Of a DNA stretch of 51,450 nt, positions 13,812 to 17,193 are shown in pieces. The stretch's first letter is position 1. The number at the start of each line of letters is the position of its first letter. Under the pieces are notes generated by a model. It was given only the letters and a program-made list of their open reading frames with translations. It did no database searches and had not been told where the DNA came from. This stretch comes from Bacteroidales bacterium (GTDB lineage: Bacteria; Bacteroidota; Bacteroidia; Bacteroidales; P3): contig JAFVBF010000040.1 of assembly GCA_017480145.1 (NCBI GenBank), positions 1 through 51,450 on the forward strand. The letters run 5' to 3'. A program made the translations under genes and the position numbers.

Positions 13812-14981
13812 TCATGCCAATGCCTGTTCTATATCATCAATCAGGTCTTGCGCATGTTCTACACCTACAGATAGTCTTACTAATGTGTCTGTAATTCCGA
13901 TTTTTGCTCGTTCTTCAGGTGCTACCGACGAATGTGTCATCAGTGATGGCAATTCGACGAGAGACTCTACCCCACCCAGACTTTCTGCCAGTGCAATTAC
14001 CTGAAGGCGAGACAGAAAACGCTTTGCGTCATTTACATCTCCTTTAATTTCAAAACATAGGACGCCACCATTGCCTCGTGCCTGACGTTTGTGAAGGTCA
14101 TATTGTCCAAATGAAGATAGTCCAGGATACACTACCCGATTAACAGATGGGTGTTGTTCCAGAAACTCAGCCACTTTCAATGCGTTTTCAGCATGTCGTT
14201 CCATCCTTAATGCCAGAGTCTTGATTCCACGAATGACCAGATAAGAATCAAAGGGTGCCATCACTGCACCTGCGGCATTCTGATAATATTGGATTTTCTC
14301 ATACAGATTATGCTCATTAAGCATCACAACTCCTCCCAGCACGTCGCTGTGTCCTCCGATATACTTGGTGGCACTATGCAGTACGATGTCCGCTCCAAGT
14401 TCTAACGGATTCATAAAATATGGAGAGAGAAATGTATTGTCCACAACAAAAATAATCCCGTGTTTATGTGCTATAGTGGCCAAAGCTGCTATGTCTGCTA
14501 TTTTTATAAGAGGATTAGAAACTGTTTCTACCCACATTAGACGAGTCGCAGGTGTGATGGCACGTTCAAATGCGGTGGTGTCCATAACGTCAGCATAGGA
14601 AACCGTGATGCCAAATTCGCGCACAACTTTGTTGAATAGTCTTTTGGTGCCTCCGTATAAGTCGTCGCTGGCCACAATGTGATCCCCATTACGCAGCAGT
14701 CCCATTACAACAGCCGTTTCTGCAGCCAGTCCAGAACTGAATGCCAGACCATGGTTTGCATTTTCTATGGCTGCCAATTTACTTTCCAAAGCAAATCTTG
14801 TTGGGTTCAAAGAACGGGTATATTCGTAACCCGCAGTTGGTACATCCACTTCATGGCGCGCAAACGTAGTGGATAGATGAATTGGGGCTGCAACATCTCC
14901 TGATGCACCTTCTCTCATGTCGGGCTCTTCTCCAGCATGGATAGCCCTCGTTTCAAATTGAAATTTATTGGTCTCTTTCAT
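13812..14981 (-). CDS. Cystathionine gamma-lyase / gamma-synthase (PLP enzyme)
   Basis: A trans-sulfuration enzyme of the Cys/Met PLP-dependent family, 389 residues, full length. The PLP lysine is K206 in SATKYIGGHSD. The substrate-loop YEYTRSLNPTR and the C-terminal signature SLGGVESLVE..MTHSS are present. Sequence alone does not separate synthase (metB, forward: cystathionine from O-acyl-homoserine and Cys) from lyase (mccB/CGL: Cys from cystathionine). The linked CBS-like gene points to the reverse direction, homocysteine to cysteine. It is the last gene of a three-gene operon ending at the hairpin at 13714-13742, 57 bases after the methyltransferase gene. Confidence 0.92.
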   Translation of the reverse strand: MKETNKFQFETRAIHAGEEPDMREGASGDVAAPIHLSTTFARHEVDVPTAGYEYTRSLNPTRFALESKLAAIENANHGLAFSSGLAAETAVVMGLLRNGDHIVASDDLYGGTKRLFNKVVREFGITVSYADVMDTTAFERAITPATRLMWVETVSNPLIKIADIAALATIAHKHGIIFVVDNTFLSPYFMNPLELGADIVLHSATKYIGGHSDVLGGVVMLNEHNLYEKIQYYQNAAGAVMAPFDSYLVIRGIKTLALRMERHAENALKVAEFLEQHPSVNRVVYPGLSSFGQYDLHKRQARGNGGVLCFEIKGDVNDAKRFLSRLQVIALAESLGGVESLVELPSLMTHSSVAPEERAKIGITDTLVRLSVGVEHAQDLIDDIEQALA

Positions 14982-15038
14982 ATTCTGTTATTATTAGTTT
15001 TAGGATAAATAGTGGATGATAATCCTTTTGACATCATT

Positions 15039-15890
15039 CTACTTTTTATACATCAAGTATATTTTATGGGTTGCGTCAAAGCGAATTAGCCTGTATCTTT
15101 TTTGTAGCATCTCGCTGTGAGACAAGTATTCTTGGTAGTATCCGAATTCTTCTACGGTTTTGAATCCAGGGTTCATTTTTTCCACATCCGTACCACAGCT
15201 CACACCGCATTTGAAAGCCGCTTTATCTACGTCAATACTTTGATGGGCGTGTAGTTTTGAGTATCGTTTGGCTAAAGCATCAAAAGCTATGGTGACATGA
15301 GTAAAATCCCGGGACAATATCTCGAAGAATTTTCGTACCATTTCTGCCCCGAAATACATAAGCACCCCTTCAACCAAAACCAGCACATGGTCTCGATGCG
15401 CTATCTGCGAACTCCAGCCTTCTTCAAATATACTTGCTGCTATGTTCGTGGCTTTTGACCCTTGAACATACTGTTGCCGTAGTGTTATTGGTGCCGCAAG
15501 ATCCACTTGATACCATGTTGCTTCAGGAAACCTATATTCTCGCGTGTCTAGTCCAGCTCCAAGGTTTATGACAACTGGTTGCCTGCCCATCTTGATTGTT
15601 TCATCAATATATTGGCGTGTGATACGGTCTAAAATCGCAGTACGAAGAGAGATGATTAATTGCATCTCTCGATCCACACGGAAATTCTGATTGTCATATT
15701 GTAGTCTATCTACAATATCTACGGCTGCCTGGTCTCGGATAATTCCATCCTCCCGAGTTTCTTGTGCACGAAAAAAAAGTGGAAGGAAGAGAGTTTTGCT
15801 CACATCCGTCATGCCTGGCGTAGCACGTTTCTCCCGTTCTACGGATGACTTAGGTGTACTGCTGTTAACTGTTCTGGAGTTGAATGCCAT
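15039..15890 (-). CDS. LCM-family (leucine carboxyl methyltransferase-like) SAM methyltransferase
   Basis: A SAM-dependent methyltransferase of the LCM/Ppm1 group (COG3315 type). The family hallmark is VINLGAGLDTREYRF (SAM-binding loop with GLDTR), followed by YQVDLAAP and VLVLVEGVLMYF. The ATG at 15890 gives 283 residues and overlaps the CBS-like gene by 26 bases. The ATG at 15812 (MTDVSKTLFLP) begins closer to the conserved domain and is also possible. The gene sits between the CBS-like and gamma-lyase genes. Its substrate is unknown. In that position it could supply S-adenosylhomocysteine and so homocysteine, recalling the unrelated yrrT methyltransferase in the Bacillus subtilis mccAB operon. 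Confidence 0.82.
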   Translation of the reverse strand: MAFNSRTVNSSTPKSSVEREKRATPGMTDVSKTLFLPLFFRAQETREDGIIRDQAAVDIVDRLQYDNQNFRVDREMQLIISLRTAILDRITRQYIDETIKMGRQPVVINLGAGLDTREYRFPEATWYQVDLAAPITLRQQYVQGSKATNIAASIFEEGWSSQIAHRDHVLVLVEGVLMYFGAEMVRKFFEILSRDFTHVTIAFDALAKRYSKLHAHQSIDVDKAAFKCGVSCGTDVEKMNPGFKTVEEFGYYQEYLSHSEMLQKRYRLIRFDATHKIYLMYKK

Positions 15891-16851
15891 GGTCGTTGAG
15901 CCAGATGTGGTTATACATTTTTGACAGGTATTTGTTTCCACTATCGCACACCAATGTGACCACACGTTGTGGAGTTTCGCTTTCACGGCAATATCGTAAG
16001 GCTGCTGCCAAAAGAGTCCCAGTTGAGGAACCGGCTAATATTCCTTCCTTAGATAGCAGGTCGTGTGCTGCTGTAAAAGCCTCTGTATCAGATATTGAAT
16101 AGGCCTTCTTGGTGAGTGAGAAATCTGCAATCTTAGGGATAAAGTCTTCTCCAATGCCTTCTACCAGCCAGCTGCCAGATACTTCGTTCAGCACCCCGTT
16201 GTTTACATAATCGGCTAAAACAGAGCCCTCGGGGTCTGCCAACACCATTTTGGTTTGGTTGGTCGTTTTTTGGAAGAAGTGAGACAGTCCTGTTAGAGTA
16301 CCGGTTGATCCAGCTCCCACAACAACGGCATCCACGTCATGATTCATTTGCTCCCAAATCTCAGGTCCTGTGGTCAGTTCGTGTGCTAACGGATTGGCAG
16401 GATTTTCAAACTGATTGATGAAGTAAGCACCTGTCTTTTGTGATAGACTGCGAGCCAAGTCTTGATAGTAGTCGGGATGACCTTTGGTAACATCGCTTCG
16501 CGTAATGACAATTTCTACCCCCATGGACTCCAGATGGCATAACTTTTCTTCACTCATTTTATCTGGGATGACAAGAGTTAGATGGTATCCTTTCATTTTT
16601 GCAGCCAGGGCAAGACCCAGCCCCGTATTTCCCGCAGTGGCCTCAATAATACGGTCGCCCGGATGGATGAGTCCCTTTTTTTCAGCTTCAGCCACCATCA
16701 TTAATCCTACACGATCTTTAATGGAGCCTCCCGGATTCTGGTTTTCAAGTTTTAGAAAAAGATGACATTTGCCCGTGTCCATTTTTGTGACTTCGAGCAT
16801 AGGGGTATGCCCAACCATCTCAAGCAGATTGTTTGTGACTAAATCGTTCAT
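15865..16851 (-). CDS. Cystathionine beta-synthase-like PLP enzyme without regulatory domain
   Basis: A 328-residue fold-type II PLP enzyme. The PLP lysine is K45 in NPGGSIKDR. The Asn/phosphate loops are EATAGNTG and GAGSTGTLTG. The segments DPEGSVLA and VEGIGEDFIP match cystathionine beta-synthase rather than O-acetylserine sulfhydrylase (CysK). The C-terminal tandem CBS domains found in animal enzymes are absent, as in bacterial MccA. The likely reaction joins homocysteine with serine or O-acetylserine to give cystathionine; cysteine synthase activity cannot be excluded. It is first in its operon. A ~300-base leader with a Cys-codon ORF precedes it. Confidence 0.88.
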   Translation of the reverse strand: MNDLVTNNLLEMVGHTPMLEVTKMDTGKCHLFLKLENQNPGGSIKDRVGLMMVAEAEKKGLIHPGDRIIEATAGNTGLGLALAAKMKGYHLTLVIPDKMSEEKLCHLESMGVEIVITRSDVTKGHPDYYQDLARSLSQKTGAYFINQFENPANPLAHELTTGPEIWEQMNHDVDAVVVGAGSTGTLTGLSHFFQKTTNQTKMVLADPEGSVLADYVNNGVLNEVSGSWLVEGIGEDFIPKIADFSLTKKAYSISDTEAFTAAHDLLSKEGILAGSSTGTLLAAALRYCRESETPQRVVTLVCDSGNKYLSKMYNHIWLNDHGIQLQNS

Positions 16852-16977: not shown

Positions 16978-17044
16978 GCAAGCGGCGGCTTAAGTGCTTG
17001 CTGAAAAAAAAAACTATAGATTGACTATCATGCAAGCCCGCCGC
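16978..17044 (-). promoter_or_regulatory. Candidate cysteine attenuator: mutually exclusive stems after the leader ORF
   Basis: On the minus strand GCGGCGG-GCTTGC (17044-17032) begins 1 base after the leader ORF stop codon. It can pair with GCAAGC (17001-16996) and CCGCCGC (16988-16982) in a 7+6 bp stem. The same GCAAGC can instead pair with a second GCTTGC (16983-16978) in a local hairpin; the two folds exclude each other. A run of ten U (17013-17004) sits between the arms. A ribosome ending the leader ORF would cover the first arm, while one stalled at the Cys codons would not. The geometry is seen; the regulatory role is inferred. Confidence 0.5.
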
Positions 17045-17045
17045 A

Positions 17046-17138
17046 TCAACAGATGCAACAGCAACAACACGATGCCAAAACAGGCATTTGAAGCCTTCTA
17101 AGAGCTTCTAAAACAATAATATGTGGCTCCTCTTGCAT
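17046..17138 (-). CDS. Cysteine-rich leader peptide of the sulfur amino acid operon
   Basis: A 30-codon ORF with ATG at 17138 and TGA at 17046. Codons 24-28 and 30 are all Cys (three TGT, two TGC, then ATC, TGT), so the peptide ends ASCCCCCIC. An in-frame ATG at 17087 would give a 13-residue version, MPVLASCCCCCIC. It starts about 20 bases after the predicted transcription start and ends 194 bases before the CBS-like gene. Six Cys codons in the last seven sense codons directly before a cysteine-pathway operon are very unlikely by chance. No function as a protein is proposed; the likely role is sensing charged Cys-tRNA. It is too short for ordinary gene finders. Confidence 0.65.
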   Translation of the reverse strand: MQEEPHIIVLEALRRLQMPVLASCCCCCIC

Positions 17139-17163
17139 TATTACCTGTTCCGAATATATTTTG

Positions 17164-17193
17164 CAAATATAAGTTTTTTCGGATAATTACAAA
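17164..17193 (-). promoter_or_regulatory. Promoter of the sulfur amino acid operon
   Basis: The minus strand carries TTTG (17190-17193), 18 bases, then TATATTTG (17164-17171): a full match to the Bacteroidota -33/-7 pattern. It puts the transcript start about 20 bases before the Cys leader ORF and about 300 bases before the CBS-like gene. Confidence 0.65.

Follow-up and report, generated by a model that had tools for sequence, protein, structure and literature searches.

Genomic setting of the operon

The stretch of DNA analyzed here, referred to as the window (51,450 nt), is contig C32 of a 1.9-Mb Bacteroidales assembly that comprises 86 contigs and is 81% complete. Three adjacent genes on its minus strand form the operon under study.

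15865..16851, minus strand: CBS-like / cysteine-synthase-like PLP enzyme, product of the operon's first gene (PF00291, 6e-71)
15039..15986, minus strand: LCM-type methyltransferase, listed from a GTG start that overlaps the CBS-like gene at its end (PF04072, 2e-10)
13812..14981, minus strand: cystathionine gamma-lyase/synthase family enzyme (PF01053, 2e-152)

The best NCBIfam matches of the CBS-like enzyme fell under their cut-offs. A gamma-lyase-family gene lies beside cbs in 22 of the 24 Bacteroidales loci listed (two of which, L062 and L135, are identical in sequence), and in L087 and L090 a methyltransferase gene is also found between the two. The pairing of CBS with a gamma-lyase presumably provides reverse transsulfuration to cysteine.

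The cbs-methyltransferase-gamma-lyase block (13812-16851) sits between mltG and pyrB. The window's pyrB is 90–94% identical to pyrB of 29 congeners, and the contig therefore belongs to the genus. At these 29 congener pyrB loci, the operon was not seen in the flank compared (up to 1.5 kb). A search for cbs at E 1e-60 in 36 genomes of the same genus returned a 38% paralogue as its sole match. At E 1e-110, a search of 395 class-wide genomes returned only the window's own genome, and at E 1e-120, 13 of 393 Bacteroidales genomes contained a match, the window's own included. The operon looks to have been acquired, or often lost, in the window's genus.

A predicted promoter and a Cys-codon leader ORF upstream of cbs

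The region upstream of the CBS-like gene contains a promoter motif followed by a short ORF that ends in a run of Cys codons.

17164..17193, minus strand: Bacteroidota-type promoter read from the sequence, with TTTG at 17193-17190, an 18-nt spacer and TATATTTG at 17171-17164
17046..17138, minus strand: leader ORF of 30 codons by translation, MQEEPHIIVLEALRRLQMPVLASCCCCCIC and a stop, with its ATG at 17138 and its TGA at 17048-17046
17049..17069, minus strand: sensing codons TGT TGT TGC TGT TGC ATC TGT

The arrangement TTTG-18-TATATTTG matches what we take to be the Bacteroidota promoter consensus. The leader ATG is located 25 nt past the -7 box, and a TAn1-3TTTG motif starts 33 nt 5’ of it. Such a motif was present between -36 and -20 of the ATG in 10 of 13 leaders, compared to 152 of 5580 control ATGs (2.7%); a fourteenth leader (L005) was missed by the structure script and did not enter this test. 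The exceptions were L231, with its box at -57, and L007 and L203, which lack a box. Consensus sigma-70 promoters were no more frequent than expected (two seen versus 3.8 expected in the consensus scan).

The leader peptide terminates in ASCCCCCIC, such that six of the last seven codons encode Cys. When the 350-nt upstream region was shuffled with its dinucleotides preserved (n = 300), a short ATG-initiated ORF with four Cys in eight residues never arose and one with three Cys arose in 5%; the window has six. Among 803 control tiles of 350 nt, taken from the window and other Bacteroidales loci, three Cys in eight were reached in 27, four in three and at least five in two. Both tiles with at least five Cys proved to be leader-like ORFs themselves, one before a SusC-type gene (L006) and one before metY (L007). 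As raw DNA, five consecutive TGY codons occur at seven sites in the window's own genome, compared to one for the reversed control pattern. This raw pattern was rejected as a leader finder because at least 377 of 393 Bacteroidales genomes match it, which makes it too unspecific.

The window leader has no recognized family. Its single Rfam match (E 2.1, a nematode snoRNA) was far under the gathering score, and nothing reached the gathering score in 15 related loci. Comparison of the leader DNA to the 29 congener pyrB loci yielded just short chance pieces, and a search of viral contigs for relatives of the element found none. No orthologous leader near enough for covariation of the window stems was found, leaving the window leader as a single known sequence.

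Predicted competing stems around the Cys codons

Folding of the leader region assigned four arms.

17052..17061, minus strand: arm 1 (fold), inside the Cys codons, pairing with 17047-17038, with an outer stem of 17073-17067 and 17033-17027
17032..17047, minus strand: arm 2 (folding), of which 17047-17038 is used in 1:2 and 17044-17032 in 2:3
17004..17013, minus strand: ten-T run in the sequence, within the loop of the 2:3 stem
16982..17001, minus strand: arm 3 (fold), GCAAGC at 17001-16996 plus CCGCCGC at 16988-16982
16978..16983, minus strand: arm 4 (hairpin fold), GCTTGC, pairing with 17001-16996 (3:4) and followed by ACAAAGTTTTCGATTATATTTTT

The segment GCGGCGGGCTTGC (17044-17032) starts one base past the leader stop codon and is complementary to both parts of arm 3, giving a 2:3 fold of -23.3 kcal/mol (z -2.2). 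The 3:4 hairpin, in which 17001-16996 pairs with 16983-16978, has a predicted energy of -8.4 kcal/mol. A previous reading of this DNA from sequence only had proposed the promoter, the 30-codon ORF, these arms and the operon, each of which was found in place on inspection of the sequence and its translation; the complementarity behind its long stem (2:3) and its local 3:4 pairing is likewise present. A 1:2 helix, absent from that reading, was also identified. It joins 17061-17052 to 17047-17038 through ten pairs, with seven more in the outer stem, at -22.5 kcal/mol (z -3.2). The helix includes the sensing codons, and arm 2 is common to 1:2 and 2:3.

When the 70 nt past the stop codon were shuffled with the leader held fixed (n = 1000), the 1:2 energy was reached in six shuffles, the 2:3 energy in seven and both together in none; the test covered 1:2 and 2:3, and the figures are somewhat flattering because the fold windows were picked after the folds had been seen. 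The pairings 1:2, 2:3 and 3:4 are mutually exclusive by folding, as in a classical ribosome-mediated attenuator. With the whole leader folded in the absence of a ribosome, 2:3 is favored and the Cys region pairs upstream, so that a switch between the folds would depend on translation.

Intrinsic terminators were also sought. No strong hairpin ends directly 5’ of the ten-T run, and no U-tract terminator was found at 3:4, where the stem is followed by ACAAAGUUUUCGAUUAUAUUUUU and the consensus scan detected no terminator. This bears out the reservation in the sequence-only reading that neither fold forms a textbook terminator. Given this result, the window element is not classed as a classical transcription attenuator.

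Cys leaders upstream of cbs in other Bacteroidales

Cys leaders were found before cbs at four distinct loci of a second genus (g40, family f39) and nine distinct loci of a third (g57, family f56). The four g40 leaders are MLNYAQVLCICCCESTTSSCREGFVLFR, MLKYTQYLCICCCSYTASGCWEASVQSG, MPEYAQYLCICCCLYNTSGCWEASVQSG and MTSESIKNISACCCPINYACWAAA, each located 3’ of a TAnnTTTG box. In all four, a terminator follows (-10.6 to -14.1 kcal/mol), starting 49–51 nt before the cbs match. The 5’ arm of each terminator can enter a competing pairing with a duplex energy of -11.9 to -17.5 kcal/mol, a value not directly comparable with that of the terminator. No Cys leader is present at L139, the fifth g40 locus, and two more (L140 and L141) start inside cbs at contig ends.

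In g57, eleven loci (nine distinct, as L099 and L104 repeat L096 and L089) carry leaders of the form MTDxxTYNFNY...RCSxVCCxF; two of them begin MTHL or differ slightly. A hairpin lies right past the stop codon, without a clear terminator. In these loci (L088, L089 and L096-L104), ATTGCA is kept shortly 5’ of the cbs ATG and, by eye, could pair with TGCAAT of the post-leader hairpin, a possible translational switch. Compared by eye, the leaders of the three genera have no alignable sequence outside the Cys runs.

The frequency of such ORFs was assessed in 21 Bacteroidales cbs upstream regions, among which loci of the same genus are not independent. At least three Cys in eight residues occurred in eight of them, compared to 0.55 expected from shuffles and one of 21 on the antisense strand; at least four Cys occurred in four, compared to 0.04 expected. 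One of the eight, L025, was counted but is not believed, since its frame lies in the upstream gene and looks like chance. The sequence-only reading had made retention of the Cys codons in orthologous leaders a test of its proposal. The outcome goes partly against it: 13 of the 21 regions, L139 among them, have no Cys leader by the scan. In some leaderless loci the upstream gene ends close to cbs (L006, L025, L087 and L090); others have a free upstream region. Two of 77 further upstream regions, L064 and L096 (a g57 copy), reached three Cys in eight. The candidate in L005 (ending in SQLACCCTVNCRL) is doubtful, being a 68-aa frame for which no promoter was seen.

Similar leaders upstream of metY and SusC genes

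Cys/Met-rich leader-like ORFs were also observed before metY in L007, L178, L231 and L240 and before a SusC gene in L006. The L007 ORF (2302-2439; MKTRF...LLPTSMIMCCMCCCCMC) precedes a metY-type gene and lies behind a SAM riboswitch. At this locus (L007:2179-2439), a SAM-I riboswitch (55 bits) is followed directly by the Met/Cys-rich ORF and then metY, which places two sulfur sensors in series. The L006 ORF (6847-6975; MDNRF...LPFMRMCCCCMYC) precedes a SusC-type receptor. In L202 and L203, a leader-like ORF is found before an unclassified protein and then SusC (the SusC gene being seen in L203). The position of Cys-rich leader-like ORFs ahead of SusC/RagA-type receptors (L006:6847-7086 and L203:1950-3041) suggests that these receptors take up a sulfur compound.

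The pattern ATGNNNATGTGYTGYNNNTGY matched at 53 places, spread over 50 of 393 genomes, compared to 12 places for the reversed control. Inspection of 35 of these loci (30 plus one each from G265, G407, G050, G054 and G191) left three judged to be leaders (L178, L202 and L203). Many of the others were out-of-frame matches, several of them apparently in SusD-like genes as judged by eye.

A survey of metY covered 79 of 80 listed upstream regions, G123 being excluded for its position near a contig start; the gene start was unplaced by motif in 20 and misplaced in at least L207, L216, L217 and L242. No general enrichment was observed (at least three Cys in eight in six of 79 sense versus four of 79 antisense regions), and with a looser scan, a score of at least 4 was reached in five sense and three antisense regions. 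The metY leaders look sporadic, with L231 and L240 convincing by eye. Folding around the Cys codons of the L006, L203, L231, L240 and g57 leaders gave nothing significant.

A palindrome resembling ATACCATN4-5RTGGTAT was noted near sulfur genes: in the window (16906-16887, partial), at L006:6760 and L007:2087, in the cbs upstream regions of L038 and L092 and in the metY upstream region of L245. In L006 and L007 it lies just 5’ of the Cys leader. A sulfur regulator may use the palindrome as its operator. A stricter form of the pattern was present in two of 21 cbs and one of 79 metY upstream regions versus six of 628 control tiles, some of these tiles being the same sites.

Proposed mechanism and alternative explanations

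The window element is probably a ribosome-mediated attenuator that responds to cysteine and controls an operon for cysteine synthesis by reverse transsulfuration. Support for a Cys leader with a switchable RNA before a cysteine operon, as the sequence-only reading proposed, comes from the 1:2 and 2:3 shuffles, from Cys leaders before the same operon in two other genera and from the four leaders that combine a terminator with a competing pairing. We infer that the region is transcribed, that the ORF is translated, that ribosomes stall on it and that the response runs in the following direction. RNA polymerase would start past the 17171-17164 box, with a ribosome trailing through the leader ORF. 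When Cys-tRNA is ample, the ribosome would reach the stop codon and be released, and arm 1 would close on arm 2 (1:2); arm 3 would then be free to pair with arm 4 (3:4), resulting in low operon expression. When Cys-tRNA is scarce, a ribosome stalled on the Cys run would cover arm 1, and arm 2 would pair with arm 3 (2:3). Formation of 2:3 would block 3:4, and the operon would be expressed. The link from stalling to the long stem in the sequence-only reading fits this geometry and is strengthened by the 1:2 helix.

The g40 leaders have a terminator as their counterpart of 3:4, and the output there would be transcription. In the case of the window, the low state may be reached via a weak, non-canonical terminator at 3:4, via another termination factor or via translation of cbs. 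A search of the window's own genome (81% complete) with the rho model TIGR00767 at E 0.001 gave no match, and the same search was positive in 12 of 14 control genomes; that rho is missing is only suggestive. It is possible, though on balance we lean against it, that the Cys leader senses cysteine while the output runs through cbs translation or factor-dependent termination instead of the 2:3/3:4 switch. The missing terminator after 3:4 favors this explanation, as does the g57 post-stop hairpin, which likewise has no clear terminator; in Actinobacteria, Cys leaders without obvious terminators were predicted and Rho was proposed, according to the available part of that study (PMC1262725). However, a joint 1:2 and 2:3 fold is improbable by chance (none of the 1000 shuffles), and the rho search argues against a Rho-dependent output.

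The remaining explanations give the leader little or no regulatory role. Control by a DNA-binding regulator at the palindrome before cbs, with the leader of little weight, is unlikely. The partial ATACCAT...ATGGT palindrome of the window and the better copies found ahead of the L038 and L092 cbs genes and of the L006 and L007 leaders point in that direction, but the window copy fails the stricter pattern, whose frequency before cbs and metY is set against its occurrence in control tiles. The palindrome also coexists with a Cys leader in L006 and L007, so that the two modes of control may be compatible. The ORF might instead encode a functional Cys-rich peptide for metal or redox binding; Cys runs are able in principle to bind metal, and the position before the operon would then be secondary. 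The g57 peptides, which keep both ends (MTDxxTYNFNY and RCSxVCCxF) between two types, are consistent with such a product. We regard it as quite unlikely, given that the leaders of three genera are unalignable outside the Cys runs, that the g40 leaders are directly followed by a terminator and competing pairing, and that the leaders sit before sulfur-metabolism genes. A chance Cys run in a non-functional short frame is very improbable. Seven raw runs of five TGY codons occur in the genome, but here a short-ORF context, a promoter position, the operon and two improbable helices coincide, and the layout recurs before the same operon in other genera.

If the attenuator interpretation is correct, Bacteroidales measure cysteine through stalled ribosomes, and individual genera do so with unalignable leaders, only some of which have a terminator, before one operon. 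The operon would then offer a natural series for the study of attenuator origins and of shifts in attenuator output. Certain SusC-type uptake genes, whose substrates are unknown, would be tied to sulfur supply, which would provide a functional lead. A broader proposal is doubtful: that in Bacteroidales a regulon of leader peptides for cysteine (and methionine) has evolved repeatedly and covers reverse transsulfuration, metY and SusC-type uptake, and that its window member switches by competing stems without an intrinsic terminator or Rho, via an output step not yet described.

Comparison with known attenuators

In classical trp/his-type attenuators, the leader ORF has many codons for the regulated amino acid, and 1:2, 2:3 and 3:4 pairings are available as alternatives. 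The window has the same three alternative pairings and an ORF rich in the codons of its operon's amino acid, with the Cys run placed before CBS-like and gamma-lyase-family genes. It differs in that its 3:4 lacks a U-tract terminator, whereas the four g40 relatives have an intrinsic terminator in this position.

The uORFC-8-2 motif, found before cysS in Rhodobacterales, has tandem Cys codons and predicted ribosome-mediated attenuation (PMC8632094, available portion). The window shares with it a uORF with tandem Cys codons and predicted attenuation; the motif differs, in the same portion of the source, in its gene (cysS), in the intrinsic terminator at its end and in belonging to Alphaproteobacteria. 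The window is not a uORFC-8-2 element, as its downstream gene encodes a PALP enzyme and not cysS.

Within the phylum of the window, attenuation by leader peptides was considered likely for Flavobacterium psychrophilum (PMC9723704), and Bacteroides thetaiotaomicron was noted to have leader-like sORFs (PMC7366714). The same general mechanism is proposed there, and the available portions of these two papers do not name a cysteine leader. No cysteine leader in Bacteroidota was recognized in the literature searched, a partial body of main texts.

The window also resembles actinobacterial polycysteine leaders. Leaders with Cys runs near the stop codon were predicted ahead of cys operons in Mycobacterium and P. 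acnes and ahead of the Bifidobacterium longum cbs gene, and the mycobacterial leaders were without conserved hairpins that could be terminators (Seliverstov 2005, PMC1262725, available portion). The window fits this description: a small ORF places its Cys codons close to the stop codon, a cbs operon lies downstream and there is no obvious terminator. It belongs to another phylum and has three competing helices predicted; the likeness is one of layout. Mycobacterial Cys leaders have reportedly been tested, in work of 2020 by Canestrari whose title calls them leaderless, whereas the window ATG follows its -7 box at a distance of 25 nt. The window thus appears to work like a cysteine attenuator, a type of control known from other bacterial groups and proposed here for Bacteroidales.
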